Source of the DNA: Planctomycetota bacterium | Lineage (GTDB): Bacteria > Planctomycetota > Phycisphaerae > SM23-33 | DNA: 44,040 nucleotides | NCBI GenBank assembly: GCA_024275995.1 | Contig: JAJRYB010000021.1 | Span: 1 to 44,040, forward strand | Reading direction: 5' to 3' | Part shown: positions 14,028-31,496 of the stretch, one piece after another | Layout: each line of letters starts with the position of its first letter | Position numbering within the stretch: position 1 is the first letter of the stretch | Program-made: the position numbers and the translations under genes | The notes under the pieces: generated by a model | What the model was told of the DNA's origin: nothing | Database searches by the model: none | The model's input: the letters and a program-made list of their open reading frames with translations, nothing else

Positions 14028-15701
14028 TCAGGTGAGAAAATCCGTGCGCTGCGGATGCAGAATGCGCCTCAGCTTCTGCAGGGCGTGGATCTCGATCTGA
14101 CGCACGCGCTCTTTGGAAATCCCCAGCCGCCTGCCGAGCTGATCGAACGTCTTGGTTCTGCCGAAGCTGTCCAGGCCATAATGATCGATAAGGATCAGCC
14201 GTTCGCGCGTAGTGAGCTGGGTCAGGACACTGTCGATGCTCTCCCGCAATTCGGAAACGTTGGCCTCGTTCGGATCGTACGATCGCAAGGCGGCGGCGAT
14301 GTCCAGCACTTCGTCGCAGCCGGTGCTGAAACGGTCCAGCAGGAACCGTTCCCGCGGTACGGATCTGGCGAAATTCCGCATGATCGCCCACGAAGCATAC
14401 GTCGAGAAACGGTTCCCGCGCGAGTAATCGAACTTCTCGACCGCCTGCATGAGCGATACGTTTCCATCGCTGATCAGTTCGAAAAGCGTCTGCGGGCCGC
14501 GGACGTGACGCTTGGCGATCGATACCACAAGGCGAAGGTTCGCGCGGACGATCTTGTTCTTGACCACGTTGGCTCGCAACAGCAGGGCCTCGACCTCCTT
14601 GAGCTGACCGGTACGGATTCGATTCACGTCTATACTTTTGCGCAGATGGTCCGCCCTGTATTTCAGGTAGTTGTACATTCGGAACAGGCTCCGCTCTCGA
14701 TTGACGTCGAGCAGGGGCACGTCATACAAAGACCTCAGGTAGGGCGGCAGGCCGGGAGGAGCCTTTACCATCGATTTCCTGGGCGCCTTGTTGTCCGATT
14801 CGTCCGTTTCCGCCAGGATAATCTCGTCGGCGTTCGGCAGGTCGAATTGCGGATTGTAGACGTAGTTGATGGGGCGATTGAGCAGTTGCATCGCCCGCAC
14901 TTCGTTAATCACGCGATAGACGCTGCCCCGCGTGCGATTGTATCGCTGCGCCAAAACATTCACCGGCACGCCCCTCAGGAAGCACCGGTAGATGATCATT
15001 TTCTGCTGCTCGCCCAGAGACACTTCCCTTGCGGGGAAGATCGCATCGTCCGGATGCTCCTGGTCGTACTTGCGGATCGTGTATCGAATCGTCTCGACCG
15101 CCCTGCCGGTTCTCGCCGCCAGCCGCTTTGCTACGTCGTTCAGGCAGCACTGCGTAAACTTCGCCATTCGTCGCGCTCGTCGCAGGATGTCCCGCCGCTC
15201 CGAAGCGGTCATCTGCGTGAACTGCATCGATCGCAACACCTGCCGGCGACAAGACTTCACGAACCGGTCGACGGAACTTTCCAGGAACGCCACGCGCCGT
15301 TTTCCATCCGGGAAAATCAGGCGGCGGGCGGGCAGGCCGCGACGGCGCCAACGCTGGATCGTCTTGGTCGATACGTTGAATCGTCGCGCCAGCGATGATG
15401 TATCGTGAACGGGTTCAGGGTAATCGCCCGTGCGAAGTTCAAAACTCTCACAGACGTCCAGCATCAGGCGAAGCAGATCGTCGCGCAGAGACTTTCCGGA
15501 TAACGGTTCGGAAAGGACATCGCGCCGCGGGCGGTAGCCCGTCAGACGAAACACCACGAAGGCATACGGGTACTCGCGATTTGGCTCGATGATCCGCAGC
15601 AGGACTTCGGCGGCGTCTACGTATCCCTTGCGAAGACGGAGCAAACCTGCGGTAAGCTCCGTGGCCAGCTCCTCCATGGGCTTGTTCAGGTATTTCCGCA
15701 T
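14028..15701 (-). CDS. sigma-70 family RNA polymerase sigma factor with N-terminal HTH domains
   Basis: A 557-residue protein. After a helical N-terminal domain, a MerR-like helix-turn-helix (SLARRFNVSTKTIQRWRRRG) and two further HTH-like segments (LNDVAKRLAARTGRAVETIRY and VNVLAQRYNRTRGSVYRVI) precede a sigma core: region 1.2 (PPYLRSLYDVPLL), region 2 (NLRLVVSIAKRHV, LFELISDGNVSLMQAVEKFD, RFSTYASWAIM) and region 4 (LTTRERLILIDHYGL, TFDQLGRRLGISKERVRQIE). Similar long sigma factors occur in planctomycetes. GAGGA nine bases before the ATG at 15701 supports this start; another ATG lies at 15725. It follows a sigma-54-type activator gene on the same strand. Confidence 0.85.
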   Translation of the reverse strand: MRKYLNKPMEELATELTAGLLRLRKGYVDAAEVLLRIIEPNREYPYAFVVFRLTGYRPRRDVLSEPLSGKSLRDDLLRLMLDVCESFELRTGDYPEPVHDTSSLARRFNVSTKTIQRWRRRGLPARRLIFPDGKRRVAFLESSVDRFVKSCRRQVLRSMQFTQMTASERRDILRRARRMAKFTQCCLNDVAKRLAARTGRAVETIRYTIRKYDQEHPDDAIFPAREVSLGEQQKMIIYRCFLRGVPVNVLAQRYNRTRGSVYRVINEVRAMQLLNRPINYVYNPQFDLPNADEIILAETDESDNKAPRKSMVKAPPGLPPYLRSLYDVPLLDVNRERSLFRMYNYLKYRADHLRKSIDVNRIRTGQLKEVEALLLRANVVKNKIVRANLRLVVSIAKRHVRGPQTLFELISDGNVSLMQAVEKFDYSRGNRFSTYASWAIMRNFARSVPRERFLLDRFSTGCDEVLDIAAALRSYDPNEANVSELRESIDSVLTQLTTRERLILIDHYGLDSFGRTKTFDQLGRRLGISKERVRQIEIHALQKLRRILHPQRTDFLT

Positions 15702-16154
15702 CCGCCGCTGTCCTCTGCCGGCCATCGGCAATATGCCCCAACCCACATCATCACACGCGGCCTGGTTATTCGCTCGGGCGCCCCGCCCAAACTTCCGCGC
15801 ATAGCGCAACATTGCAAAACCGGCCGGGGCATTCCCCCATCCGCTGCCCCGCGATACAACTGCTCGAACAACAGTACAACATCCTCAGGCGAAGGGCTAC
15901 GCTGCTTGCGGCTGTGACCGAAAGCATGCTCCCCTCCGTGTGCATATCCTGCGCCACACCAACACCAACTACGTGCAACATTGTACCTGGAAGCATAACA
16001 TATTGTATTTAAAGGCGTTATGAATAAATGATTCTTGCGCCCGGATGAAATCGAACCGCCCTTGAACTCTCGATGAGTCTTATTACCCGCCATACCATGC
16101 ACATAATGGGCAATATTTCCCATGGCCCCGTCAGCTCGGTACCCGCGTTCGATT
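15702..16154. other. 453-base intergenic region with an AT-rich core
   Basis: No convincing gene. The stretch at about 15970-16035 is clearly richer in A and T than its surroundings and contains TACAAT twice on the minus strand, so it probably holds the promoter of the sigma gene, though no pair with a good -35 can be chosen. ATGGG and CCCAT around 16107-16124 make a short hairpin. One arm of the inverted repeat at the activator gene's 3' end also lies here. Frames crossing this region are Cys- and Trp-rich and not protein-like. Confidence 0.5.
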
Positions 16155-16163
16155 TCACTCCGG
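16040..16163 (-). other. inverted repeat including the stop of the activator gene
   Basis: GTTCGATTTCACTCCGG (16147-16163) contains the TGA of the activator gene, whose stop codon is at 16155-16157. The opposite orientation of the same sequence, CCGGATGAAATCGAAC, lies at 16041-16056, missing one base. The loop is about 90 bases and no U tract follows, so a role as terminator is doubtful. Confidence 0.4.
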
Positions 16164-17672
16164 CCGGCGAATGTCGTACTTCTTCATGCGATAGCGAATA
16201 TTGTCCCTGCTGATGCCCAGCGTCTGGGCCGCCTTCGTCTGGTTCCAGTTGCTCTCGCGCAGAGCGTTGGTGATGATCGCCTTCTCGTTGGCGGCCAGTA
16301 CCGACCCGCTCGTGATTTGCGCAGCCTGCCCACCGTTTAACTCGCCGGGCAGGTGCTCAAGATGAATCGTCGTCGGCTCGTCGCCGGTTTCTCCTGCGCC
16401 GCGGCACAGAAGGCACGCGCGCTCGAGCGTGTTCTGAAGCTCTCGTATATTTCCCGGGAAGTCATACCTCGCCAGTGCCGCGACCGCTTCCTGCCCGATC
16501 TCCGGCACGGACATTTTCAATTCCCCGGCTAGATGTTTCAGGATGTGCTCCGCCAGGAGGGGGATGTCCTCCTTGCGATTTCGCAACGGTGGTATCTCGA
16601 TTGGAAATACGTTCAGGCGATAGAACAGATCGTCGCGGAACCGTCCGGCGGACATTTCTTCCGACAGGTTGCGGTTGGTCGCGGCGATTACCCGAACGTC
16701 GCACGCGATTGCCGAGGCTCCGCCGACGCGAACGATTTCCTTCTCCTGCAAGACTCTCAGGAGTTTCACCTGAACATCCGGCGCAATCTCCGCAACCTCA
16801 TCCAGAAATATCGTTCCACCGTCGGCAAGTTCGAACCGCCCCAGCTTTCGACCGGTAGCACCCGTGAAGGCACCGGCCTCGTGCCCGAAAAGCTCGCTTT
16901 CCAGCAACGTTCGCGGAAGCGCCGCGCAGTTGACCGCGATAAAAGGACGCTCCGAACGTGCCGAGTTGGCGTGTACGAACCTCGCGGCCAATTCCTTTCC
17001 CGTTCCCGTCTCGCCGAGCAGCAGCACCGTCGCCGACGAACTCGCCACGCGCATGATCAGGTCGCGCACTTCCTGCATCCCCGGACTTGTGCCGATCATC
17101 TCGTTTTGCGAGCGCATTTCCTGGCGAAGCCCGCGATTGTCCTTACGGAGGCGATCGTACAGCTTGGCATTGGTCACTGCTATCGCGGCGAGGTTCGCGA
17201 ACACCTGCGCCAGCTTCATATCCTTTTCGGTGAATTCCCCGCCCTGAATGGGATTGATCAGCTCGACGACGCCAAGCCGGTCCCCTTTGCTTGTCAGCGG
17301 CGCGACGATCAGGCTTCGCGTCTCGAAGCCGACCAGCTGGTCGATCTCCTTGAAGTGCGAGTCCTCCCGCGTCACATCGCCCACGATAGTCGGACGCCCG
17401 GTACGCATGACCATGCCCGACACGCCGGCGTCCTCGTCGTATTCCATGCCGACAAGCTGGGTCGCCCGATCCCCCACGGCAGCGCGAAAAACCTGCTTTT
17501 TTCGCGCCTTATCGAACATGATGACACTGGAGGCTTCCGCTCGCATCACCGCTGCCGCGGTGCGCGCGATGGCGTCGAGCGTCTCGTCCAGCTCGCGGGT
17601 CTCATTGATAACAGCCGAGGCGTCAACGAGGGCTGCGAGTGTTTCGGCAGATAGATCGCTGGTTCCGTACAT
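16155..17672 (-). CDS. sigma-54-dependent transcriptional activator (GAF, AAA+, Fis HTH)
   Basis: A 505-residue NtrC-family protein with a GAF sensor (about 15-170) in place of a receiver domain. The AAA+ domain has Walker A GETGTGKE (220-227), the sigma-54 contact loop GAFTGA (267-272) and Walker B TIFLDE (287-292). A Fis-type HTH ends it ([23 protein letters not shown]). It would remodel sigma-54 polymerase in response to a ligand or redox state sensed by GAF; the GAF segment resembles FhlA/NorR-type sensors only in a general way. ATG at 17672 is preferred to a TTG 36 bases upstream. Confidence 0.9.
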
Positions 17673-17718
17673 GGGATAACCGTCCCGCACCCGTATCGGC
17701 AAATCCAACGGCAGGCAC

Positions 17719-19407
17719 TTAATCGAGCAGGTATTTCAACCGTCGGATATGCCTCAGGTACGGCGAGTTTTCCTTATCCTTCAGCGCTGCGTCGCACGTC
17801 TTCATGGCGCTATCGCGTGCCGTCGCCGCCCGTTGTGTCAGCTCGTCCATGATTTTCTGATCCGCACTCCCTGACCGTTTCATTCCATCGATGCGCATCT
17901 GGTACAGGTTGTACAGTCCCGCATAAGCGACGGCGAGTTGCCCCTCGTACGTCCAGGAGTTATTCACCCCCGCGTAGCGAACGGCCTGATCGAAAACCTT
18001 GATCGCGCTGTTGAAGGACTTTTCAGCCGACGTCGCCACTTTCGTCGGGTCGGACACGTACGAGGCGATTTTGCCAGCCAGGTTCGGAAGTTTACCGTCC
18101 CTCTTGCCCATCAGGGTCCACAGGGTTTTTAATTCGGAAGCTATGTCCTGCGCCAATGCCCTCATTGCCAGTTGGTCCACGCACATCCTGGCGGCGAGCA
18201 TGTCCGCCTCGCCGGCCGACGCTGAACTTTCCGGACGAGGACTGGTGGAACCGCTTCGGGCAACCTTCGCTTCCAGATTCGCAGCCAAGCGCAGGTGCGT
18301 CGATGCCGATTCGAACGCGTCCAGTGCATCCTTTTCATGTTTCTTCGCCATGCCCAGCGCGTCCGAGAGTTTCTCGGCGTTATGCTCGACCTGCAGGTAA
18401 GGCTTATCGAGTTCCTTCGTGACCAGGTCCTTCTGCCTGGCATTTGTATCGCCGACCTCATTACGCGCCGCCGCGATTTTCTCTGCACTTTCCTGCCTGG
18501 CCTTTGCGGACTGCCCCTTCAATTCCAGGTCTTTCTTCTGCGTTTTCAGCGAGCTGATATCGTAATCGTAACGTGCGATATTCGCCTCGTTCCGGCCGGC
18601 GACTTTCTCCTTCGCCAAAGCCTTCTCCAGCAGGTTCAGGCCCTCTCTTCCGGACGCCAGTCGGCTGTCCGTTCGTAACTTGCCCGCCTGCGCCCGAAGA
18701 TTAGAGGTCGCCACGCTCAGGGCGTTGCGGGCTTTGGTCTTCTCCGCGATTTTCGCGTCGATATCGGAAATTTGTTTTTTTATCGCCGCCTGCTGGTCTT
18801 TGGACTGCTTGATGATCTCATTAAGATCGTCGTTGCTCACCTGCGACAGGAGGTCATAGTATTCGATCCGGTTGAGTTGAGCGTTCAGGATCTGCACCGC
18901 CTCGCGAATCCTGTCCGCGGCGTATCGCGCAGCCTGTCGTTGAGACGCCGTTTTCGCGGCATGGTACTCACCCCGCAGCATGACGATCCGACCCAGCGTC
19001 GCCTCGGCGAGAGCCTTGGTGGCGTCGTCGGCAGCGGCACAACGCGAGATGGCTTTCTTCAGGGCCGAAGCGGCCTCTTTGAGCACGTCCAGTACCTTCG
19101 GGTTCATTGCCGATGCGGGAAGAACCTGAACCTTATTAGTATCGGAATCCGGAATAATCGTGCCGGGAGGCAACGGAGAGATCAACTCCACATTGTCGCC
19201 GCTCTTGTATTTGTAGACGGGGTTCGCCCACAGCGCAGAGGCCTTGGCATATCGCCGCTGAGCCTTCGCGGTTTCCTCCATCAGCGCCTGAGAGTCGGCG
19301 GTGGACCGTCCTTCGGAACAGCCGGGCAACAGACCTGCCTGGACCGCACAGGCGAACAGTAAAACGCCGAGAGTCAAGCTACGTTCATGCACGTTTTTAT
19401 CTCCCAT
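17719..19407 (-). CDS. large coiled-coil lipoprotein, unknown function
   Basis: A 562-residue protein with a signal peptide and lipobox LLPGC (C30). The mature protein is almost wholly helical and charged: long coiled-coil stretches at about 190-370 (repeated Lys, Glu, Ala and Gln, e.g. [20 protein letters not shown]) and a helical C-terminal part with TPR-like spacing ([16 protein letters not shown]). It could bridge the outer membrane and the periplasm. The ATG at 19407 gives a proper signal peptide. It sits next to the envelope block upstream. Family not recognised. Confidence 0.75.
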
Positions 19408-19461
19408 GCTTTCCACCACTACGACGCCGTCATGGCATCCTGATCGTCGCGTAGTTTTTTA

Positions 19462-20148
19462 TCACGACGGGGACATTTTTGCAATGTTCCTCCCCAGTAA
19501 ATCGTCCTTGCCGGCCGTGGTATCGGCCTGGTCGGCATTCTGGAACCCCCGCACGGCGCGAAGCACTTCCATCGCGTCGTCGAGGCGGGTGGTGTAATCC
19601 CTGCCTCGCATTCGTCCCGGAGCACACAACAACACTACCCCCTCGCGCACTTCCATGCTCACGCCGTCGTCGGCGAACTTACCGCACGAACCGGCCAGCA
19701 CATCCGCCATCGCCCCGCTACCGCGGTAATTCCACAAGCCAAGGCGTCCATCGCAGCGCTGCAGCGCCGGCGCCTGGGTATCCTTCCACATCAGAACGCC
19801 GGGCAGGCGCAGGTGCGTCTCCAGCACGACCATGCAATAATGCCGTGTCAGGCGGCGCGTCCCGTGCCCCAGCTCGCTGCGGAAGTCGAACTCCCGCAGC
19901 GGCACACCCTCCGTTCGCCCATAGGCGACGTTATAGGCCCTTGCGCTGTGCCCGCTGTGCATAAGTGTAAACTCGGCGTATCGTCGCGCGATGTCAAAGG
20001 GATCGTCTGCGGAGAACCGCAGATCCATTTCATTGGCCTTGCTCGCCAGGCGACGGGTCCGCTTCAACTGGCGCAGGCCCATCACCACGAACGAGACCGT
20101 CGACGCAATCAACACGCCGATCAGTAATGCCATGAACGCCGTTTGCAC
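19462..20148 (-). CDS. single-pass membrane-anchored protein, unknown function
   Basis: A 228-residue protein with one N-terminal helix (MALLIGVLIASTVSFVVMGL), a basic stop-transfer segment (RQLKRTRRLASKAN), and a soluble alpha/beta domain with several short hydrophobic strands (HYCMVVLETHLRLPGVLMW, SMEVREGVVLLCAPG). Start uncertain: GTG at 20148 (used) or ATG at 20133, neither with a good ribosome site. Gene order suggests co-transcription with the cytochrome-like gene upstream and the lipoprotein downstream. Confidence 0.65.
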   Translation of the reverse strand: MQTAFMALLIGVLIASTVSFVVMGLRQLKRTRRLASKANEMDLRFSADDPFDIARRYAEFTLMHSGHSARAYNVAYGRTEGVPLREFDFRSELGHGTRRLTRHYCMVVLETHLRLPGVLMWKDTQAPALQRCDGRLGLWNYRGSGAMADVLAGSCGKFADDGVSMEVREGVVLLCAPGRMRGRDYTTRLDDAMEVLRAVRGFQNADQADTTAGKDDLLGRNIAKMSPS

Positions 20149-20166: not shown

Positions 20167-21432
20167 TCAGATCGGCAGGTCCCCTTTCTTCTTGTCGCCC
20201 GTCTTCTCGTCCGTGGAGGGTGCGGTCTCCGATGCAGGAAGTGCCGGACGTCCGGAGAGGTTCAGCTTCATGCCGAACGGTGGCTTCCACAGAACACGAT
20301 AGTTCGGCGAGATCGGACCCTTAAGCGAGCGAATCCACGCGTGGATTTTCCGATAGCTCGCTTGCCTGCGATTGCGGAACGCCTTGGGCTCAATCTTGCC
20401 CGGGTGCTGGTATTCCGCCTGGTCCTTCGGAAGTGCATATTGTAACAGAAGCGATTTCGCCGGATTGTCACGATAGATCAGGCGACGCCCGTTCTTCGAG
20501 TACGAACTGAGGATCAGGAAATTGGTGTAATCCACCTTTTCGTATTTTCCTGACACGCTGAAGAGTTTCAGCCCGCCCCGGGCAACGTCTCCACCGTGGC
20601 AATGTGCAGCCGCACAGTACTGCGACACAATCGGCCAGACCCGGCTGCGAAACTCGGTCATGAACTTCGGATCGGTGCGCACTTCGATGTCCCTGCGAAA
20701 CGACGTGTCGTCCCGGTCGATTTTGCCGAGCATGTAAACCACTTTTCGCGAACGGGACAATGCGCGGAAGGCGTCGTCGGCGCCGGGCGCCTCGAACTCG
20801 TCCCGGCCACGCATCGACTTGATGAAACGCTCGATCACGTCATTCTTGAAATTGATTGACACGGCACTATCATCCTCGCGGATTTCTTCGAGGCGAATTT
20901 TATAGATATCCTCAATACTGACAAGCCACTCGGGTTTCAACCTTGTCGAACTGCCCCAAGGCTGCGTCGTGCGGGGTTTGGGCCCAGGCTCGTCTTTGGG
21001 TTCAACCTTCGAGAGCGCGGCCGCCTTCAGGCGGGACTCGATCTGCAGCGATAATGCCCGCGCCTTGACATTGTTGCGGAGCTTCAACGCCCTTGCGATG
21101 GCCTTCTTCGCCTCTTTATACAACTCGGCCTTGAAGGCCCACTCGGCAAGCTTGTATTGATCCTCGAAACTCTTCGGATCGGCCTTTGCGCTGAGCTTGA
21201 GATACTTATCCTCCGGCGTGACGACGTCCGTTATGGACACGATCTGGTCCTTCGCGACCGTCACGACAACACCGCTGTCCGTCTTGATCTGGACACTTCC
21301 GTCGTCCTGCTTGACCACCTCGCCCCTCAGTTCATGGCCGCCCTTCAATTGAACGATTTTAACGCCGCCATAAACGGAAACGCAGATCAGCAGCACAGCG
21401 AGCATCGCTACGAGAACAGATGTTTTGCTCAT
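20167..21432 (-). CDS. exported cytochrome-like protein with small beta domain and CX4CH motif
   Basis: A 421-residue protein: signal peptide (1-22), a small beta domain (about 25-70, LKGGHELRGEVVKQDDGSVQ followed by IKTDSG), a TPR-like helical part (about 75-140), and a C-terminal domain with C273-A-A-A-H-C278-H279-G-G. CX4CH followed by a GGLKLFS segment resembles the heme-motif region of planctomycete cytochrome-domain proteins (PSCyt type), where CX4CH variants are frequent. Heme attachment is inferred, not shown. GAGGTG before the ATG supports the start. It may work in the envelope next to the ExbB/ExbD block. Confidence 0.75.
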   Translation of the reverse strand: MSKTSVLVAMLAVLLICVSVYGGVKIVQLKGGHELRGEVVKQDDGSVQIKTDSGVVVTVAKDQIVSITDVVTPEDKYLKLSAKADPKSFEDQYKLAEWAFKAELYKEAKKAIARALKLRNNVKARALSLQIESRLKAAALSKVEPKDEPGPKPRTTQPWGSSTRLKPEWLVSIEDIYKIRLEEIREDDSAVSINFKNDVIERFIKSMRGRDEFEAPGADDAFRALSRSRKVVYMLGKIDRDDTSFRRDIEVRTDPKFMTEFRSRVWPIVSQYCAAAHCHGGDVARGGLKLFSVSGKYEKVDYTNFLILSSYSKNGRRLIYRDNPAKSLLLQYALPKDQAEYQHPGKIEPKAFRNRRQASYRKIHAWIRSLKGPISPNYRVLWKPPFGMKLNLSGRPALPASETAPSTDEKTGDKKKGDLPI

Positions 21433-21543: not shown

Positions 21544-21617
21544 AGGCGGCAGTGGGATTCGAACCCACGAATAACGGATTTGCAATCCGTCGCCTTGGTC
21601 CGCTTGGCTATGCCGCC
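21544..21617 (-). tRNA. tRNA-Cys (GCA)
   Basis: A complete 74-nt cloverleaf. Acceptor stem GGCGGCA pairs with TGCCGCC, the discriminator is U73 as expected for tRNA-Cys, the anticodon stem ACGGA/TCCGT carries the loop TTGCAAA with anticodon GCA, and the T arm is GTGGG-TTCGAAT-CCCAC. The CCA end is not encoded. It lies between the giant TPR gene and the cytochrome-like gene, in the same direction. Confidence 0.96.
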
Positions 21618-21664: not shown

Positions 21665-24600
21665 TTAACCTGCAAGCTTCTCCGCACGGGCCTGGATGGC
21701 GTTGAACCTCGCCCTATACTTTAACCCGCCAAGCGAAGGATAGTCCGCACGTAATTGCCTTATCCGCAGCGCCAGCGTGGACATTACTTCCGGGTTCTTC
21801 GAGTATCCATTGAGCAGGAAGTCGCAGTATTCCACCTGTATCCGCCAATAAAAGTCCGGAAACGCCACCGGGTCGATACCGGCCATCATGTCCTTGTAGA
21901 GACGCCTGGCCTCCTCCAGGTTCCGCAGATGACTGTACGCCCTCGCCATCCCCAGCACGTTAGGCAGATCGACCGGGATTCCGGCCTTGGCGCCTTGCCG
22001 CAGGTCCGCAATGGACTCCGTGAGTTTTTTGACGACGATCGCCAGGCGCCGTTCGCGCTGCTCTTTGGAAAGCGGCTTGCCGTCCGGACCCTTCCCGTCG
22101 AGATACCTCAACGCCTTGATAACGGCGCCGGCCTTGCTGGAACGTTCGATGTTAACGCCGAACTCCGTCTTCAGTACATCCAGATGCTGCGCCGCGAGTT
22201 TGCGGATGACGGCTTCGTTTTTAACGGCGCTGCGGATGGCGGACAAATCGGCGGCGAATCGCTTGTCGAGCTTAACCGCTTCTTCCCCGCGCCGTTTGTC
22301 GTCGTACGCGCGGCATTCCTTGAAAAGTTCCAGGCATTTTTTATAGAGGTTGTCGGCCTCTTTCTGTTTTCCGCGCAACTGCGCAGCCTGCCCCGCCTCG
22401 AGCAGCGCGTCGGCGTACATCTGCGTCAAGGCGTACCTCTGCGATAGCGGCAGAGGTTTGGGCTGATTCGCGCTGTCGAAAAGCGTTTTGGCGAAGCTCA
22501 GGAACGTTTCCTGGTAAGTCGCCAACTCGCTTTTTTTATCCTCGTCGCCTCGGAGGTTTTCGATGCGATCCCTAATCTGCGAAACGACCAGTCGGATCAG
22601 GTCCTCAGCCTGTCCCGGATGCCGCTTTCCGAACTCGCGAATTTCCTTGATCGCATCTTGAGTCTGGCGGTTCTCGATCATCTTCCGGATGCGGTAGTCC
22701 GTTACTTCGCCGAGCACAGGCGTCGATGGCCATTCCCCGGGCAGCCTGCTCAGTGTGTCCAGCGCAATGCGTTTCTGGTCCATAACCTCGTAGTAGACAA
22801 CGGCTGCGTTGAATGCCGATCGCGCCCCCCAGGCCATCAGTTCGTTCCGGTCCGTCTTGCCGGTCATTTTTTCGGCTTGCGCCTTTGCGTCCCTGGCGTA
22901 GCCCAGAAGGTCGCGCGTCAGCTTGCGCGGAGGATCTATCTTGACGACTTTTTCACGGAGCTTTTCGTCCAGTACGCGATCCACGCGCGTATTCAGCGCC
23001 TGGAATCGGGAATACATATACGTCGGCAGGTTTGACGGCACGCGATTGTATGCACGGATCGCCTCGTCCATCCATTTGAGGATTTCATCGTTTGACTCGG
23101 CGAATCTGGCCTTTTCCGCGCAGGCCTGCCCGAGGTCGAAGTTCCATCCCAGCGACTCGGGCTTCTTGCCCCACTCGGGGTTTTCCACCAGCGTCTTGAG
23201 CGCCTCGATGTACTCGTTACGCACCTCGGCGGGAATTGGTTTGCGATCGCTGCGCAGCCGATCTATGAACGCATAGTACAACTTCACCGAAAAAATCGAC
23301 GCCTGTGCGGCGCTGACATGCCCGGCGTGGTCCCTCGCCACCGCAAGGAAGTTTTTTCCCGCTCCCCTTGCGTCGCCCTGGCGGTTAAGCACAAGCCCCA
23401 TCTGCCACAACGCCGTCGGCCGGAGCATCTGCGCCAGTTTCGTCTTCCGTTCCAGGACCTTCGCCACCAGTATCCTGCTCTTTTCGAGCGCTTCGGGCGA
23501 TTCCTGCGACGCCTCGGAGATCGCCACCGCCAGCAGGATCAACGCGTTGAGCTTGTCGTAATCTTCCCTGCCGCGATACTTCGACGCGATGATGGAAAAA
23601 AATGCCGCCCGGATGCCCGGGTCCGTGTGCTTGTCCACGAAATCCAGCAGCACCTTCTGGGCCAGGAGGTCGTACTCGGCCGCCTTTTCCGGGTCTTTCC
23701 CGCGGATGCTCGACGCCCAGTTCTCGTACAGGTAATTCAGGAGCATTGCCGTCTTTACGTCCGCCTGGAGTTGGGCGTTTTTGCCCAGCAGTTTCCGGCT
23801 CTCGCGCTCGAAGTTGTCTACTGCCGATTTCGCCTCGGGGAACTTGCCCCACTCGATCAGGTTTCGTGCGATCTCGAACAGCGTGAGCATTCGCACTCCC
23901 GAACCGGTCTCCTTGACGCCCGCCGAGATCACCTCATTGAGGTATTCTGCCGCCTGGGCGTGCAGACGGTCCCGCTCTGAGAGCTGCCCTTCGGAGCGGG
24001 CCCACTCCCGCGCCATGATTCCACAGCCGCGAAGGGCTGCGTACTTCACGCCGCTTTCGTTGTCGCCACTAGCGAACTCGCCCAGTCCTCCGATACCGTC
24101 CCGCAGCAGCGACGCCCTGCGATTGCGATGCTCGGCGTCGATCGGCATCGCCATGGCGCGATAGCAGCGAATCCAGCCAAGACGGTAACGCAACTGCTTC
24201 TGGAGGTCCTCCATCAACGGAACGACCGTAACGAGCTTTTCCAGGTCTCCCCGCCAATCCTGCAACTTCTCGGTTGCGCGGACGTCCATGTCGGCAAGAA
24301 TCTTCGTAGCCTCGCCGGTTTTTTTCACGATCAGGTCGCGGTCTTCCTGCCCGCCCTGGAGGTACAGAAGCTTGCGGAGGTACGGCTCGATGTACATCAG
24401 GCCCATCGTCTCGGCAAGCTGGAGGCGGTACTCGTAATGTTTGACCAGCTCTTCGTCCGTCGTCGCCTGTTTCGTCATCTCGACGACCTTCCGCAGGGCG
24501 ACGATCGCCTCGTCCAGCAGCCTGCTTCGAACGGCAACGTCGCCGGTCCGTCCCGCCAGCGCTATCTTGCTTGTGGCTATCCAGAGGTAGTCCTTTACCC

Positions 24601-24829
24601 CTCCGGTTCCGGTTCCGCGAACCTCTTTCGCCAATTCGTCCAGCAGCTCGGTCATTCCCATGCCCGAAAGGCGATTGGCCAGCTTGCCGGAGTCCATGTT
24701 CTCGTAGGCGCTTTTGCCATTACCCTGCGCCGCCAGGGGCGCAGCAAAAGCCGCGAAGGCCAGTATCACCAACGCAATTCGCCATTGGACCCTCAAACGC
24801 CCGATCAAAGCTGTCTCAGCAATACGAAT
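21665..24829 (-). CDS. giant exported TPR/helical repeat protein
   Basis: A protein of about 1054 residues: signal peptide (hydrophobic core IALVILAFAAFAAPLAAQG) followed by helical repeats throughout, with TPR-like pairs such as AEYDLLAQKVLLDFVDKH and WGKFPEAKSAVDNFE. It likely scaffolds protein contacts in the periplasm. It closes the ExbB-ExbD-ExbD run. Start: no ATG, GTG or TTG has a good ribosome site, but AAGGAG (24839-24844) lies nine bases before an ATT codon at 24829 that gives a well-formed signal peptide, so ATT initiation is proposed; TTG at 24808 or 24796 are alternatives. Confidence 0.75.
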   Translation of the reverse strand: MRIAETALIGRLRVQWRIALVILAFAAFAAPLAAQGNGKSAYENMDSGKLANRLSGMGMTELLDELAKEVRGTGTGGVKDYLWIATSKIALAGRTGDVAVRSRLLDEAIVALRKVVEMTKQATTDEELVKHYEYRLQLAETMGLMYIEPYLRKLLYLQGGQEDRDLIVKKTGEATKILADMDVRATEKLQDWRGDLEKLVTVVPLMEDLQKQLRYRLGWIRCYRAMAMPIDAEHRNRRASLLRDGIGGLGEFASGDNESGVKYAALRGCGIMAREWARSEGQLSERDRLHAQAAEYLNEVISAGVKETGSGVRMLTLFEIARNLIEWGKFPEAKSAVDNFERESRKLLGKNAQLQADVKTAMLLNYLYENWASSIRGKDPEKAAEYDLLAQKVLLDFVDKHTDPGIRAAFFSIIASKYRGREDYDKLNALILLAVAISEASQESPEALEKSRILVAKVLERKTKLAQMLRPTALWQMGLVLNRQGDARGAGKNFLAVARDHAGHVSAAQASIFSVKLYYAFIDRLRSDRKPIPAEVRNEYIEALKTLVENPEWGKKPESLGWNFDLGQACAEKARFAESNDEILKWMDEAIRAYNRVPSNLPTYMYSRFQALNTRVDRVLDEKLREKVVKIDPPRKLTRDLLGYARDAKAQAEKMTGKTDRNELMAWGARSAFNAAVVYYEVMDQKRIALDTLSRLPGEWPSTPVLGEVTDYRIRKMIENRQTQDAIKEIREFGKRHPGQAEDLIRLVVSQIRDRIENLRGDEDKKSELATYQETFLSFAKTLFDSANQPKPLPLSQRYALTQMYADALLEAGQAAQLRGKQKEADNLYKKCLELFKECRAYDDKRRGEEAVKLDKRFAADLSAIRSAVKNEAVIRKLAAQHLDVLKTEFGVNIERSSKAGAVIKALRYLDGKGPDGKPLSKEQRERRLAIVVKKLTESIADLRQGAKAGIPVDLPNVLGMARAYSHLRNLEEARRLYKDMMAGIDPVAFPDFYWRIQVEYCDFLLNGYSKNPEVMSTLALRIRQLRADYPSLGGLKYRARFNAIQARAEKLAG

Positions 24830-24890
24830 GGCCGTAAACTCCTTCGGCGTGAGTAAAATGAAGGGTTGCACAATTCCTCGCGATGGACAG

Positions 24891-25406
24891 TCAGTCCTCC
24901 GCGACGAAAACAACATTCTTGTATTTAGCCAGGACCGCCGCGTTGAACGCCTCGAGCGCGTGACGCCACGCGACGTCATCTCTCGGTTTGATGATCACCG
25001 GCACTTTCGTAGCAGCTTCACCCAGCGCCAGCTTCCGTCCCTCGAGCAGTTCATAGAGCTTCCTGGGCGTCTTGATACTCACGCTCACCTTGTCCACGTC
25101 ATACAGGCAGCCGGTCATCCGCTGCGTCTTGGCGTCCATTGCCGGTATCACGTTGATCGTGATCGGGAGAAGGTCCGTGACCACCGGATCATCCTCGCTC
25201 TTCGTGGGAAGCGTGCCGGGGATCTGCCCTTCCGCCAGGCGAAAGTTGAACGCCAGCAGGAAGAACAGAAGCAGTTGGAACGTCACGTCGATCATCGGCG
25301 TCAACGGCGGCTGCATCTTCGCCTTCGGACGTTCGCGTTTCTTTCGCTGCGAAACGAAATGCGTCGTTTCGTCGCCTTCTATATGATATTTCGTGTCGCG
25401 TGCCAT
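24891..25406 (-). CDS. ExbD/TolR family protein (second copy)
   Basis: A 171-residue biopolymer-transport protein with a long basic N-terminus, one helix preceded by PLTPMIDVTFQL (D40 is the conserved membrane aspartate of the proton path), and a periplasmic domain of about 110 residues. ExbD/TolR pairs with ExbB/TolQ to turn ion flow into work on the envelope. It starts two bases after the stop of the first ExbD gene. The two ExbD proteins differ greatly outside the helix, so they are likely distinct subunits rather than spares. Confidence 0.9.
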   Translation of the reverse strand: MARDTKYHIEGDETTHFVSQRKKRERPKAKMQPPLTPMIDVTFQLLLFFLLAFNFRLAEGQIPGTLPTKSEDDPVVTDLLPITINVIPAMDAKTQRMTGCLYDVDKVSVSIKTPRKLYELLEGRKLALGEAATKVPVIIKPRDDVAWRHALEAFNAAVLAKYKNVVFVAED

Positions 25407-25408
25407 GA

Positions 25409-25930
25409 TTATTGGTCCGAACCCCGCTCCTTCAACAGCGCACTGAATTTAACTTTCGCTATCTTCACGTCGGCGGCGGCGTCCATTACATGTTTGACAT
25501 ACTCGAACGCCACGCGATGATCCGCCCGTATCTCAACGTAGAACTTCGTTTTCCTGTCCGAGGCGGCTTTCTTCCTGTCGCCCAGGATCTTCTTCAGCCC
25601 ATCGTAATCGTCGACGTCGATCTTCTTCTTGCTGATCATGTAGTACTTGGCCATGCCGGCATCGAGGGGATCGACCGCCTCGGGGCTTCTATCGCCACTG
25701 ACGGAAAGAATGTTCACTACCACCCGGTTCGGAACACCCAGTTTTTCCTCTTCGACGGCCTGGCTCCGATAGGGACGATGCAGAGACAGGTTCGCCAGCT
25801 CGTCCGAGGCCATCTGCCCGGCGAGGATGAAGAAAACGATCAACTGGAAAGTCACGTCGATCATCGGCGTCATGTTGAAGTCAACGCCGCCCTGTCCTGT
25901 GCCTTTTTTATAGACCCTGCTCTTGGCCAT
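25409..25930 (-). CDS. ExbD/TolR family protein (first copy)
   Basis: A 173-residue protein with the signature MTPMIDVTFQLIVFFILAG (D25) in its single helix and a periplasmic domain ending in VEIRADHRVAFEYVKHVMDA, where ExbD and TolR proteins carry the same strand-helix motif. GAGGTG before the ATG at 25930 supports this start over one ten codons earlier. It is 60 bases downstream of exbB and two bases before the second ExbD gene. Confidence 0.9.
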   Translation of the reverse strand: MAKSRVYKKGTGQGGVDFNMTPMIDVTFQLIVFFILAGQMASDELANLSLHRPYRSQAVEEEKLGVPNRVVVNILSVSGDRSPEAVDPLDAGMAKYYMISKKKIDVDDYDGLKKILGDRKKAASDRKTKFYVEIRADHRVAFEYVKHVMDAAADVKIAKVKFSALLKERGSDQ

Positions 25931-25990
25931 TGCACACCTCATCCCGAGCTTGCGACGCATCTGCGCCTTTTTCGCCCGGAAGATCGACGA

Positions 25991-26644
25991 TTATTTCTTG
26001 CCCGGCCTGAAGGCCGAGATCAATTCCTGCGACGAAAGCATTGCTTCGCTGGTCAGCTCGTCGATGCGGTTTCGCATCACGGCGAACACCGCCAGTGCGG
26101 GAATCGCGATTGCCAGGCCAAGCAGCGTCGTAACCAGTGCGATGCCGATATCATGGGCGAGATCGGCTGGATTGGGCTGCCCTTTCTGCACGATCGTAAA
26201 GAACGCGTTGATCATGCCCCAGACCGTTCCAAGCAGTCCGAACATCGGCGAGATATTTCCAATAAGGTTCAGCCACTCTATGTGACGCAGCAGCTTGGTC
26301 GTGCGTTCCTCCGCCGCCTCTTCCATCGCGCGTTCCATCGCGGGGTATCCGTGCGGCGCCTCGGTGAGGGCGGCGTGCACAAGATGGCTGAGGAAGTCCG
26401 GCTCCTGCGCCGTAACCTCGATCGCCTCCTTGTACTGCTTCCCGTCGAAGAGTTCCTGCACCTGCTGCCTGGCGGCCTCGGGAAGCAGGTTCACCCTCCG
26501 GATCGAGATGAAATGCTCCACGATAATCGCCAGCGTTCCGATACTCATCAACCAGAGCAGGATCCCGATTATTCCACCACCAGGCCAGACCAGGACCTTG
26601 AAATAATTCATGCTTTCGCCGCTTGCTTGCGCCAAGAAATCCAT
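25991..26644 (-). CDS. exbB: MotA/TolQ/ExbB family proton channel protein
   Basis: A 217-residue inner-membrane protein with three helices: about 23-45, then NLIGNISPMFGLLGTVWGMI and IGIALVTTLLGLAIAIPALA, the conserved channel-forming pair of the family. A cytoplasmic loop of about 70 residues lies between helices 1 and 2, as in ExbB/TolQ. With the two ExbD proteins it should form a proton-driven rotary or piston-like motor; the partner it drives is unknown, since no TonB, TolA or flagellar gene is nearby. AAAGGAGA precedes the ATG. Confidence 0.92.
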   Translation of the reverse strand: MDFLAQASGESMNYFKVLVWPGGGIIGILLWLMSIGTLAIIVEHFISIRRVNLLPEAARQQVQELFDGKQYKEAIEVTAQEPDFLSHLVHAALTEAPHGYPAMERAMEEAAEERTTKLLRHIEWLNLIGNISPMFGLLGTVWGMINAFFTIVQKGQPNPADLAHDIGIALVTTLLGLAIAIPALAVFAVMRNRIDELTSEAMLSSQELISAFRPGKK

Positions 26645-26771
26645 TCACCGTCTCCTTTATCAAACTTTCAGTCGTCGACGCACTCCACCAACGGCGGATT
26701 GCTCCATAATTGTGGACGGAATCCGATCGACAAAGTTACTTTTGCAATTCAACTGTCAAAAAACTTGCTTT

Positions 26772-27827
26772 TCAACTGCCGAGCTTCTTGAGCTCGTTCA
26801 GTGCCGATTTGGAAAATTTACCGCTCCCTGCGCCGACCTTCGTCAGCGCCATTCGCGCCGCCTGCTTGTTTCCAAGCTCTATGTTCACAATCCCCGCCAG
26901 GTACAGCGCCTCGGATGTCTCCTGTGCCTGGGGGTAGAAAACCACCACCCGCATAAAGTTCAGACCGGCCTGGAGAAGCATCCGGCGGTCCTTTGCCTTG
27001 CGATATTTGATCAACTGGGCCTTCCCTCGCAACAGAAGCGCCTGGGAGAGCTGCTCCGGCGTGAACCTTTTCAGGCTCGGCTCGATGATTTCGAGCACCT
27101 TGTCCGCCTGCCGGCGATCGATAAACGCCCTGGCGGCTTCCAGCTTCGTCTGAAGCCCCGCCGTCGAGGGCGTTTTAGCGCCACCGCCCGGCGTGACGCT
27201 CTGGCTGCCGGTAAGCTGCTCGGCGAGTTTCGCCGCCTTTTCCGCACGACCTTCCGCGAGATACAGCTTCATAAGCAACCGGCGCACCGCCGTTCGGTAA
27301 GCGCCGGCCTTAAGCTTTCCATCCTTCGCTTCCAGCAGGACGATAGCGCCGGCGTTTTCTTTCGACCCTTTCACGGCCGCTTTGGACGGCGCCAGGCGGA
27401 TCGACCGGGAAAGATTGTCCTTCGAAGATGCGTTCTCGTCGGTAATCGCCAGCCATTCCCTGACGGCGCGGGCAAGCAGGCCTCCACGCTTGAGCGCCAG
27501 AAGGCGGCGGGCACGAATCAGCTTTTTCCTCCAGGCGACGGACTCGGCCTTGCGGGCTTTATCGTAGGCGCCGACGGCCTGGGCGTACCGCTTTGCTTCC
27601 AGGAGTTTCTCCGCCTTGTTGAAAAGCGGACTCCTGTCGAGACTTATCGTGGAGACATCCGCCAGATCCTTGGCTCTCAGACCGCCGCGCGTTCGGATAG
27701 TGATGGAGAACTCGTCGGCGCTCTTGACCGTCACGCCGGAATAAGGCAGCCCGCCCACCACCACGTCATCGGCAAACGCCATCGCTGACGCGGCTAGCAC
27801 TGTCAGGAATATCGTTGTCTTTCGCAT
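26772..27827 (-). CDS. exported protein with small beta domain and TPR-like repeats
   Basis: A 351-residue protein: signal peptide (MRKTTIFLTVLAASAMAFA), a small beta domain (about 22-65, GGLPYSGVTVKSADEFSITI) and helical repeats to the C-terminus with TPR-like helix pairs (KAEKLLEAKRYAQAVGAYDK, LLRGKAQLIKYRK). The order signal, beta domain, repeats is shared with the cytochrome-like protein 6 kb away. It follows the VWA gene closely and leads into the ExbB-ExbD-ExbD genes, so it is likely a periplasmic part of that complex. ATG at 27827 has AAGAGG upstream. Confidence 0.8.
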   Translation of the reverse strand: MRKTTIFLTVLAASAMAFADDVVVGGLPYSGVTVKSADEFSITIRTRGGLRAKDLADVSTISLDRSPLFNKAEKLLEAKRYAQAVGAYDKARKAESVAWRKKLIRARRLLALKRGGLLARAVREWLAITDENASSKDNLSRSIRLAPSKAAVKGSKENAGAIVLLEAKDGKLKAGAYRTAVRRLLMKLYLAEGRAEKAAKLAEQLTGSQSVTPGGGAKTPSTAGLQTKLEAARAFIDRRQADKVLEIIEPSLKRFTPEQLSQALLLRGKAQLIKYRKAKDRRMLLQAGLNFMRVVVFYPQAQETSEALYLAGIVNIELGNKQAARMALTKVGAGSGKFSKSALNELKKLGS

Positions 27828-27841
27828 GGGCGCCTCTTGCG

Positions 27842-28978
27842 TCAATCCTGGTCGGTAATCGCCAGGAACCGTCCACCGTTTTCCCTGGCGATGGTTTGCA
27901 TGACCTTCACCGCCTCGGGATGCTGCTGGGCGACGTCTCCACCGTAAAGGTAGGTGTTTATCAATACCTTATGGTCCCTGTTGCGCGCACGGATCGCGGC
28001 AAGGACCTTTTCATTATCGGGAAACTCCCCATCGGTCAGCAGGTAAATCAGTTTGCCCGGCCTCTTGTTCGATTTATCCAGAACGTCGAAGGCGCGCAGC
28101 AGGGCCGGTATCGGATTGGTCCGTCCTCGAGTATGTATTTTCTTGAGGAACCTGGCAGCCTGGAGCTTGTATTCCCTCGTCGCCGGAACGAGCCGTCTCT
28201 GGCCAAACTCGATCGGCGGTCCTGCGGCGAACATGATGATGTGAAAATCCTGCACTTCTTTGAGCCGCGAGATCGAACGCCCCATGGCGTTACGAACGAA
28301 GTCGAACGTATCGATCATCGAACCGGACCGGTCGATCACGAAAACGACATGGTGAGCGTTTCCACCGCTGCCGTAGAAAGTACTGCGTGGACCCTTCGCG
28401 CCGCCCGTGTTCAACCCCAGGGGCGACATGTCCCCGGACGGCGTCCCCACGCCTTGAAGCGCTATCAGGCGAGGGCGTTTCGTCTTGACCGTTGTTTCCT
28501 TCTTGGAAAACTGCTTGCGGACAAGCTTCTTCTGCTGGTTCTTGAGGCTCTTGGTCTTGTTCGGGTTCATCCTGGCGCCGGGGTCGTCGGACATGAAGGC
28601 GTCCGGGATAATTACCTGTGCGGACCCCTCCTCCACCACCACTATCATCACGGCGAAAACCATGATCAGGAACAGGCCTACGTGGAAGAACAGGCTGATC
28701 ACCCATGGCATGACGTGCGCCATCGCCGTCATCACGACGTCGTCTTCGGCGTGAAGTTCGTCTTCCTGTCCGTCGGAAGCCCCTTCCGGCGCATCCATAG
28801 ACGTGGGCGCAGCGCTTCCCTGTACCGCATTGGGCGGTACTTTGGGCTGAGGCAATGACGCAAGCCCTGCCGGCACCGAAACTCTCTTGCCGCACTGGGG
28901 GCACTTCACGAGACTTCCGGGGGCTGCCTCTATGCCAAGCAGCTTTCCGCATTTTTCGCATCGAAATTCAACAGCCAT
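27842..28978 (-). CDS. zinc-ribbon, membrane-anchored VWA domain protein
   Basis: A 378-residue protein. A cytoplasmic N-terminal zinc ribbon (C7, C10, C26, C29) and linker are followed by one helix (about 91-115) and a VWA domain outside the membrane with an intact MIDAS: DRSGS (D216, S218, S220), the RGRTNP threonine and LTDGE. VWA domains bind protein ligands through a metal ion, often in multi-subunit envelope or chaperone complexes. AAGGAG eight bases before the ATG fixes the start. It is the first gene of the six-gene block that includes ExbB and two ExbDs. Confidence 0.87.
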   Translation of the reverse strand: MAVEFRCEKCGKLLGIEAAPGSLVKCPQCGKRVSVPAGLASLPQPKVPPNAVQGSAAPTSMDAPEGASDGQEDELHAEDDVVMTAMAHVMPWVISLFFHVGLFLIMVFAVMIVVVEEGSAQVIIPDAFMSDDPGARMNPNKTKSLKNQQKKLVRKQFSKKETTVKTKRPRLIALQGVGTPSGDMSPLGLNTGGAKGPRSTFYGSGGNAHHVVFVIDRSGSMIDTFDFVRNAMGRSISRLKEVQDFHIIMFAAGPPIEFGQRRLVPATREYKLQAARFLKKIHTRGRTNPIPALLRAFDVLDKSNKRPGKLIYLLTDGEFPDNEKVLAAIRARNRDHKVLINTYLYGGDVAQQHPEAVKVMQTIARENGGRFLAITDQD

Positions 28979-29146: not shown

Positions 29147-29383
29147 TCATGACGCTCTCTGCCTGACGACGGCGGAGCGGGAATGGACGGTACGATGCTC
29201 CGCTGGAAGGTTCCCCTCTACGTGGGATGCTTCTTCCGGCTGGACGCCGGGCATGGGAAACCGCGCCAGTGCATCCGGCACGTCAACAACCCTGCCGCAA
29301 TGAGGACACCTTGTTTGGGTGGATTTGTCCCCGACTAACGGAACACCCCCGCCGCAACGGGTACATCGGAAGTTCGCGCTCAT
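29147..29383 (-). CDS. 78-residue zinc-ribbon protein, paralogue of the VWA protein's N-terminus
   Basis: Begins MSANFRCTRCGG and has a second CPHCG knuckle, so four cysteines bind one zinc. Its first 45 residues align with the N-terminal ribbon of the neighbouring VWA protein (same spacing and the following DVPDALARFPMP against SVPAGLASLPQP). The rest (EGNLPAEHRTVHSRSAVVRQRAS) is low in hydrophobic residues. It may be a stand-alone adaptor or the remains of a duplicated VWA gene. GGAG eight bases before the ATG at 29383 supports translation. Confidence 0.55.
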   Translation of the reverse strand: MSANFRCTRCGGGVPLVGDKSTQTRCPHCGRVVDVPDALARFPMPGVQPEEASHVEGNLPAEHRTVHSRSAVVRQRAS

Positions 29384-29700
29384 GGCCATCTCCAATCGCA
29401 GATGCCTGGTTCCGCCGGAAGGAGTTCGACCGTCCGGCCTGTCGAAACTGCCTCATCTGAACACCAGTACCGATCGGATGATGTATGAGTGCCGCCGGGC
29501 GCTTAAGGATATTTTATCGCGCCCTTCCACATTAATATAACCCGCCGCGCGGCGAAATGTTAACAGGAAACCGAACCTTTTTTTCAGAATCGCACGATCA
29601 ATACCGGCACGTGCGGATCGTCCGGAAAAACGGCTTCCTTGCAAAAGACACAGATGCGCTTTTCCTCTTGAACCGATTTAATGTATATTCCAGACACCGT
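29384..29700. other. 317-base divergent intergenic region
   Basis: No gene is supported. The region holds an AT-rich stretch and a perfect 12-bp palindrome CGCCGCGCGGCG (29543-29554) flanked by ACATT (29530-29534) and its complement AATGT (29556-29560). It lies between the minus-strand zinc-ribbon gene and the plus-strand tRNA-Leu, so it may hold promoters or an operator for both; TATATT at 29684-29689 could be a -10 for the tRNA but has no partner. Confidence 0.45.
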
Positions 29701-29782
29701 GCGAGGGTGGCGGAATTGGCAGACGCGCCAGGTTTAGGTCCTGGTCCTGAAAGGGGTGCAGGTTCGAGTCCTGTCCCTCGCA
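29701..29782 (+). tRNA. tRNA-Leu (UAG)
   Basis: A complete 82-nt class II tRNA. Acceptor GCGAGGG pairs with CCCTCGC, the discriminator is A73 as required for leucine, the anticodon arm CCAGG-TTTAGGT-CCTGG carries anticodon UAG, there is a long variable arm, and the T arm is CAGG-TTCGAGT-CCTG. CCA is not encoded. It is the only clear plus-strand gene in the right two thirds of the window. Confidence 0.96.
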
Positions 29783-29842
29783 ATCGGAGGTCGATTTTAG
29801 AACCTGTACTGTGGTAACTCCGTGCGCCGCGCGGAGCGGATT

Positions 29843-31363
29843 TCAGGCTTTGACCGCCGACGGATCGGCAGCCTTGGCTTTCTCGCCCACGCGCCTGGCG
29901 TGAAAGCTCATCAGCGAAACGTAGAAGAATCCGAACGCGAAGATCAGCAGGAACGGCGCGGTGATCGCCGATTGTATGTGTAGCAGGCTCAACGCGACGC
30001 ACCCGCTCATGTAGACGCCGAAGGCGAACTCCACGTAAGGCAGCCAGTCGCCTTTACGTTTTTTGCGCTCCGGCGCAGACTCGGAGGAAGGACGAACGCC
30101 CCCGCCGTACTTCGGCGTACGGACGAACTCGCTCTTTTTACCGAGCAGCGCCTCGATGATCGCCTTGGCATTCGAGACGCACAGGCCTACGCCAATCGCC
30201 ATCATTATGGGCATGTATTTCAGCACGACGCGCCAGTCGCCAAAGAGCACGTACTGGCTGGCGGTGTAGAATACCGCCGCCGACAGCGTCGCCAGCGTGA
30301 ATACGCCGATATCAAACGCGCCCCGCAGGAACGTTCCGCCTTCCATCGGGACGGTCTGGAGATACATAGCCGGGAACATCATGAGCACCAGCAGCAGCAT
30401 GTACAGGTGCATCGTGAAGCATGTCAGGTGGAAAAACGCCTCGACCTTGACCTTAAGAGGCGCCTTGGACAGCAGCACCTTGGGAAGCAGTTTCAGCGCG
30501 GTCTGCGCCCCGCCCTTGGTCCAGCGGAACTGCTGCGCCTTGAAGGCGTCCATTTCCGGGGGAAGTTCCGCCGGGGCCGTCAGGTCCGGAAGGAACACGA
30601 ACTTCCACCCCTTGAGCTGGGCGCGATATGACAAGTCGAGATCTTCGGTCAGCGTATCGTGCTGCCAGCCCCCTGCATCCTGAATGGCGGACGTTCGCCA
30701 CGTTCCGGCGGTACCGTTGAAACTCATGAACCGCTGGCTGCGATTGCGGGCTACGTGCTCGATGGCGAAGTGCCCATCGAGAAAAATCGCCTGCGAGCGG
30801 GTCAGGAGGCTGTCGTTGCGATTGAGATGCGCCCATCGTGTCTGGACGACGCATATTTTCGGATCGGTGAAATAGTCGATGCTGCGTTTGAGGATGTCCG
30901 GCGCGGGAATGAAGTCCGCGTCGAATATGGTGACGAACTCGCCCTTGGCGGTCTTGAGTCCGTTTTCGAGCGCCCCGGCCTTATATCCCGACCGGTCCGA
31001 ACGGTGGATGTACTCGATATCGAAGCCCTTCTCGCGGGCCTCATCGACCGCCTTCTGCGCGATCGAGCACGTTTCGTCCGTGCTGTCGTCGAGCACCTGT
31101 ATCTGGAGACGGTCCCGGGGATAGTCGATCCGGCAGGTCTCTTCGATAATCCTGAGCGCGACGTACTGCTCATTGTACATCGGCAGTTGCACCGTGACGC
31201 GGGGAGGAACGTCGAAGCGCCCCTGGAGTTTCGGAACTTTGTGACGATGGCGATAGTACAGGTACACCAGAACGTAGCGATGGAAGCCGTACAGCGACAC
31301 CATCACAAGGGCAAAGGTGTACACAACCATGAAAACGTCTTTGGCAAGCGCAGCCCAGTCCAT
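29843..31363 (-). CDS. family 2 processive glycosyltransferase, membrane-bound
   Basis: A 506-residue GT2 enzyme of the cellulose/mannan synthase-like type. An N-terminal helix (about 10-36) is followed by the catalytic domain with LDDSTDE (D92, D93), FDADF (D148, D150), TEDLD (D241) and QQFRW (277-281), the D,D,D,QxxRW set of processive beta-glycosyltransferases, and then at least five membrane helices. It would build and export a beta-linked polysaccharide. No PilZ domain, BcsB or hydrolase partner is adjacent. AAGGA six bases before the ATG at 31363 decides the start against the ATG two codons earlier. Confidence 0.87.
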   Translation of the reverse strand: MDWAALAKDVFMVVYTFALVMVSLYGFHRYVLVYLYYRHRHKVPKLQGRFDVPPRVTVQLPMYNEQYVALRIIEETCRIDYPRDRLQIQVLDDSTDETCSIAQKAVDEAREKGFDIEYIHRSDRSGYKAGALENGLKTAKGEFVTIFDADFIPAPDILKRSIDYFTDPKICVVQTRWAHLNRNDSLLTRSQAIFLDGHFAIEHVARNRSQRFMSFNGTAGTWRTSAIQDAGGWQHDTLTEDLDLSYRAQLKGWKFVFLPDLTAPAELPPEMDAFKAQQFRWTKGGAQTALKLLPKVLLSKAPLKVKVEAFFHLTCFTMHLYMLLLVLMMFPAMYLQTVPMEGGTFLRGAFDIGVFTLATLSAAVFYTASQYVLFGDWRVVLKYMPIMMAIGVGLCVSNAKAIIEALLGKKSEFVRTPKYGGGVRPSSESAPERKKRKGDWLPYVEFAFGVYMSGCVALSLLHIQSAITAPFLLIFAFGFFYVSLMSFHARRVGEKAKAADPSAVKA

Positions 31364-31496
31364 GGACATTCCTTACGGCGTCATATTCTGCGTTTTTTGC
31401 GCGCGGCGATCGCGCACATTATCCATTCGACATTCTACCGGCACATGCATGAACCGTTCAAGAGAGAGCATGCTGGAAATTCGACATGAAAGCAAG

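Follow-up and report, generated by a model that had tools for sequence, protein, structure and literature searches.

The locus described here raises the question of what an ExbB-type channel, two ExbD-type proteins, a VWA protein and two exported TPR proteins, all encoded side by side, do in the envelope of a planctomycete. It lies in a window of 44,040 nucleotides (the whole stretch of DNA that was analysed, contig C130) from a genome of 2.64 Mb that is 97% complete. The earlier note had taken these genes for a distinct ion-driven system, as yet undescribed, with the VWA and TPR proteins as its load or track. The distinctness of the system holds, given that the block is conserved as a unit and persists in genomes without detectable TonB. 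The novelty does not, since the class had already been reported in 2025 (PMC12204202). With a probability of about 0.8, the block encodes a member of the vWA-transducer class, a machine that transmits proton-driven force across the envelope. This reading draws on sequence, structure prediction and comparative genomics, from which we infer a physical complex, a heterodimer of the two ExbDs, a gripping partner and a cellular role.

Layout and conservation of the block

Open reading frames and Pfam searches bear out the order and the small gaps first noted for this same-strand run. Six intact genes occupy the minus strand from 21665 to 28978, in the order VWA, small TPR, ExbB, ExbD1, ExbD2 and giant TPR, separated from one another by 2 to about 127 bases. 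The features of the block and its flanks are the following:

29147..29389, minus strand: short zinc-ribbon ORF, at the site of a second VWA transducer in relatives
27842..28978, minus strand: VWA protein of 378 aa, most likely a force transducer (Pfam, alignment, AlphaFold2, Foldseek), with zinc ribbon (residues 1-40), membrane helix (79-115) containing Ser95-x3-His99, linker (117-193) and VWA domain with MIDAS (199-378)
26772..27827, minus strand: exported protein with a small beta domain and TPR-like repeats
25991..26644, minus strand: channel of the ExbB/TolQ/MotA family, pore threonines T140 and T173
25409..25960, minus strand: ExbD1 (TolR/ExbD), membrane Asp35, position-A clade
24891..25406, minus strand: ExbD2 (TolR/ExbD), membrane Asp40, position-B clade
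21665..24808, minus strand: exported alpha-solenoid/TPR protein of giant size (1047 aa, TTG start)
20167..21432, minus strand: conserved seventh gene, with signal peptide, SH3-like domain, TPR pair and C-terminal CX4CHG motif
19462..20148, minus strand: small membrane-anchored protein, often next downstream (8 neighbourhoods)
17719..19419, minus strand: coiled-coil putative lipoprotein, often downstream (7 neighbourhoods)

Pfam detects VWA and a weak zinc ribbon, MotA_ExbB (7e-30), ExbD in both ExbD proteins (5e-14 and 8e-12) and TPR signals. None of the six proteins matches an NCBIfam gliding or Tol equivalog at the curated cut-off, where weak CpoB/YbgF-like TPR signals are the only trace, one of them in the small TPR protein. 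A PHROGs search gave nothing useful, and the block's genes are absent from the main text of the P. limnophila essential-gene paper.

The conservation of the block was evaluated in relatives from the Phycisphaerae/Phycisphaerales of the Planctomycetota, most of whose genomes are MAGs. In a first survey of 40 neighbourhoods, the identical six-gene order was found almost throughout the family and also in other families of the class. A second survey applied family HMMs to 78 named loci, which partly overlap the first set, so that the two counts are not independent; 65 of these loci have enough flanking DNA to be judged. Motor genes were found in 59 of the 65, ExbB with two or more ExbDs plus the giant TPR gene in 56, and all six genes in 51, which places the six-gene order far beyond chance. 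The VWA and TPR genes are thus conserved neighbours of the motor genes, as the earlier note had proposed to check. A third ExbD is present in 9/65 loci and a second VWA gene lies upstream in 12/65. By HMM score, the third ExbD (L080, L081, L087, L088, L106, L109, L112, L114 and L136) is one more protein of the second type. In six loci the VWA match has no motor gene within reach, and these look like stand-alone VWA proteins. Outside the class, several planctomycete genomes have a VWA protein with Ser-x3-His adjoining ExbB and ExbD genes. The block is near-universal in Phycisphaerae and often the sole motor of the ExbB/TolQ family in the genome. The short ORF upstream of the VWA gene, in which the zinc ribbon is the sole part of a VWA transducer present, is probably the remnant of a lost or decayed VWA transducer paralogue.

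The conserved region extends downstream to the seventh gene and, less often, to the two genes that follow it. Thirteen homologues of the seventh gene adjoin other copies of the block, and most of them carry the CX4CHG motif; this motif is of the planctomycete cytochrome-like kind and may point to a redox link. A tRNA-Cys gene (21544-21617, minus strand) separates the giant TPR gene from the seventh gene, and a tRNA-Leu gene (29700-29783, plus strand) marks the upstream boundary, beyond which a GT2 glycosyltransferase is encoded (29843-31369, minus strand). Further downstream, positions 14028-17708 (minus strand) encode a sigma-54-type regulator with a GAF domain, followed in this listing by a long and unusual factor of the sigma-70 family; this second protein recurs near the block in four relatives.

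The motor, the VWA protein and the exported TPR proteins

The ExbB protein aligns with TolQ structures across the pore region, and both pore threonines are invariant (70/70 rows each). At the expected TonB site the serine is kept in 64/70 rows and the proline in 67/70, with the correspondence in TM1 based on motif spacing. At the position aligned with the tryptophan that touches TonB/TolA, most rows have V, I or L instead, a point against the VWA protein as a TonB/TolA-like transducer. The membrane aspartate reported earlier for both ExbDs is retained without exception (70/70 and 75/75 rows). A search of the PDB using ExbD1 gave no match. In a tree of 135 ExbDs, the sequences split by gene position, with the first after ExbB (A) separated from the second (B). 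L117 and L122 alone depart from this split, apparently because their position labels were displaced when an over-long overlapping ORF was filtered out. ExbD1 and ExbD2 thus form two ancient clades and an old, maintained pair, which suggests that each needs the other and fits a 5:2 motor built around an obligate heterodimer.

The VWA protein is probably more than a neighbour of this motor. Its S95 and H99 are invariant across 30 aligned proteins, and Ser-x3-His falls within the membrane helix in 52 of the 56 VWA relatives that have one, compared with none of 349 membrane segments from unrelated neighbouring genes used as control. In TonB and TolA, a Ser-His pair makes the contact with ExbB/TolQ (PMC12215075). 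Conservation does not extend to the Leu-x3-Ser half of SHLS, which also counts against the transducer reading. The helix has no proton-binding Asp. In the close family the helix is followed by a conserved IP-x4-S-x2-PGG stretch, which may correspond to the motor box of the linker in the vWA transducer class; a loose form of the pattern matches just 21/52 proteins. The distance between helix and VWA domain hardly varies, and in 42 of the 45 cases measured it is 96-119 residues. From the VWA alignment, AlphaFold2 models the zinc ribbon confidently and the VWA domain very confidently, with a long helix and a disordered stretch (117-193) between them. The zinc ribbon is found in most of the VWA family here and, because of the topology, sits in the cytoplasm.

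The MIDAS of the VWA domain is intact, as had been claimed: D216 and S220 are invariant, and S218, T287 and D316 are each at least 90% conserved. Foldseek places the domain nearest, among PDB entries, to the VWA/I domains of calcium-channel alpha2-delta, inter-alpha-inhibitor and integrins. The protein therefore follows the plan of TonB and TolA, that is, helix, linker and globular tip, with the tip swapped. Because it joins the TonB/TolA Ser-x3-His helix to a linker and a globular tip, it is most likely a TonB/TolA-like force transducer that binds the motor, rather than the load or track it had been taken for. For the same reason, the earlier denial of any TonB or TolA here is wrong in so far as the VWA protein is a part of that kind, and correct in that the block has no separate TonB gene. 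A TonB-like protein in the operon, which the note had named as a sign against a distinct machine, occurs only in the form of the VWA protein itself.

The giant protein is indeed exported and made of helical repeats, as described before, although not of 1054 residues, since this length would need an ATT start. There is no ATG near that position, and TTG at 24808, which gives 1047 residues and a clear signal peptide, is most simply taken as the start. The predicted structure is a solenoid of about 46 helices with a mean pLDDT of 88. Its Foldseek matches, all of low TM-score, are solenoids of a generic sort, among them the Campylobacter flagellar periplasmic scaffold, and are uninformative.

Relation to Ton, Tol-Pal and other known systems

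Gene content was surveyed in 60 relatives, 39 of them of high quality, with the absence of TonB, TolB and receptors judged by a single Pfam model each. ExbD is present in all 39 high-quality relatives, TonB_C in 13 and the TonB-receptor Plug domain in 12; TonB_C was thus not detected in 26 genomes that all have ExbD. TolB_N was found neither in the window's genome nor in any of the 39, and in only one of the 60. INDEPENDENCE from Ton and Tol is seen in ten high-quality genomes (G003, G008, G012, G016, G021, G023, G030, G035, G039 and G044) that have exactly two ExbDs, both encoded by the block, and in which HMM searches gave no match to TonB_C, Plug or TolB_N. Because these ten genomes carry only the ExbDs of the block and no detectable TonB, receptor or TolB, the block is independent of Ton and Tol-Pal and, within the sensitivity of the HMMs, must work without them there.

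In the window's genome, the sole TonB_C match is on contig C62, next to a TonB-dependent receptor and with no ExbB or ExbD adjacent. This lone TonB (L077, G000:C62, 6500-9814) has a Ser-x3-His helix of its own. The only other MotA/ExbB match in the genome is a flagellar MotA, and the ExbB/ExbD set of the block is the sole non-flagellar one found. Given that no motor genes lie beside it, the C62 TonB may borrow or share the motor of the block. A Pal-like lipoprotein with lipobox, coiled coil and OmpA domain is also encoded (L206, 3343-4062, G000:C131), with equivalents in L207-L215. Such a protein is present in 10/10 genomes examined, in which TolB is absent, and it is unlinked to the block.

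Among known systems, the closest is the group of inner-membrane vWA proteins described by Williams-Jones et al. in 2025 from the PVC group, which have an SHLS helix and a linker of about 100 residues, are encoded close to tolQ, a pair of dissimilar tolRs and a gene for a TPR protein, and are proposed to transduce force (PMC12204202). The block is a member of this class. It shares the single N-terminal membrane helix with an SHLS-type Ser-x3-His (the Leu-Ser half not being conserved here), the disordered linker of about 100 residues, the VWA tip, and the adjoining tolQ, heterologous tolR pair and TPR gene. Unlike the published transducers, it adds the N-terminal, cytoplasmic zinc ribbon, a second and giant TPR gene after the ExbDs and the conserved, cytochrome-like seventh gene. 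The class-wide near-universality, the genomes free of Ton and Tol and the resemblance in architecture, part for part, to the Agl-Glt core are also new with respect to the published class.

This core, described by Luciano et al. in 2011, consists of the TolQ-like AglR, the TolR-like AglQ and AglS, the transducer GltG (FHA, TM, TonB) and a pair of exported TPR proteins, GltD (1191 aa) and GltE (471 aa); in bacteria that do not glide, the genes form a single cluster together with GltC (PMC3169522). The block likewise has clustered genes for one TolQ-like and two TolR-like proteins, a TonB-type transducer and a large and a smaller exported TPR protein. The match of six block parts to six core members is one of architecture. 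Where GltG has an FHA domain and a TonB tip, the VWA protein has a zinc ribbon and ends in a VWA domain. With Tol-Pal (TolQ-TolR-TolA-TolB-Pal-CpoB), the block has in common a TolQ/TolR motor, a TolA-type helix motif, a TPR partner in the operon and a Pal-like lipoprotein elsewhere in the genome. It differs in the lack of a TolA C-terminal domain in the transducer, in two unlike TolRs and in the unlinked Pal-like gene, and classical Tol-Pal is rejected, since TolB_N was detected in none of the 39 high-quality relatives. With TonB-ExbB-ExbD it shares the motor family, the Ser-x3-His helix and the long linker, whereas the VWA tip takes the place of TonB_C and the block occurs in many relatives without TonB or receptors.

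These likenesses leave other readings to be weighed. The block could be a mere ExbB-ExbD engine for a TonB encoded elsewhere, with the VWA and TPR genes as bystanders, as the motorless TonB on C62 beside its receptor and the single non-flagellar motor set of this genome would allow. This is very improbable in view of the 26 high-quality relatives with ExbD and no TonB_C, of the ten genomes that have the two block ExbDs alone, and of the motor-docking motif that the VWA helix itself carries; the TonB-free genomes speak strongly against a TonB engine alone. It is hardly credible that the VWA protein belongs to the second published vWA family, the transpore-helix type, in which it would replace ExbD inside the pentamer. 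That family does have single-helix VWA proteins next to tolQ genes (PMC12204202), but here two ExbDs with their Asp are present, which speaks against the replacement, and the VWA helix has Ser-x3-His and no Asp.

A surface motility or transport system of the Agl-Glt type, in which the motor would drag the VWA/TPR assembly or polysaccharide along the envelope, is unlikely, though less so than either of these. The architectural match to the Agl-Glt core (PMC3169522) speaks for it, as does the GT2 glycosyltransferase that precedes the block and is found near it in five relatives, which by analogy may hint at a polysaccharide cargo in the style of Agl-Nfs. Nonetheless, the published core is itself present in non-gliders (PMC3169522), and no outer-membrane parts like GltA, GltB or GltH were seen in the block. 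Moreover, the block is spread almost throughout the Phycisphaerae. This class is not known for gliding.

Proposed mechanism and role

In the preferred reading, that of a vWA-type force machine, ExbB5 and the ExbD1-ExbD2 pair would make up an inner-membrane rotary motor of 5:2 stoichiometry, in which proton flow would turn or step ExbB5 around the ExbD axle. The Ser-x3-His helix of the VWA protein would dock on, or ride, the rim of ExbB, as in TonB and TolA, and the flexible linker would span into the periplasm, pulling or releasing the tip. Because its MIDAS is intact, the tip would be suited to metal-dependent gripping of a partner. The best candidates are the solenoid and the small TPR protein, given that these are the other conserved exported members, and they may form a scaffold that relays force to the cell wall or the outer membrane. 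In Myxococcus, the zinc ribbon of GltJ recruits or regulates its complex, and the cytoplasmic zinc ribbon of the VWA protein may act in an analogous way.

We think that the role of the block is a housekeeping one in the envelope, namely Tol-like coupling of the outer membrane to the cell wall or division, and not nutrient import. The near-universality of the block, the absence of TolB and the Pal-like lipoprotein found in all ten genomes examined favour such a core role; it counts against a Tol-like role that the block shows no genomic link to this Pal-like partner. It may tentatively be proposed that the vWA motor is a class-wide stand-in for Tol-Pal in Phycisphaerae, in which the ExbB-ExbD1-ExbD2 motor, an integrin-like VWA rod, the giant periplasmic TPR scaffold and the Pal-like lipoprotein would tie the proton gradient to contacts between the outer membrane and the cell wall. 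The block parallels the Agl-Glt core complex, itself found in bacteria that do not glide, and its VWA-tipped output widens the outputs of ExbB/TolQ motors beyond the textbook TonB and TolA. Since the usual redundancy of Ton and Tol-Pal is absent here, the role of vWA transducers is directly testable in these bacteria.
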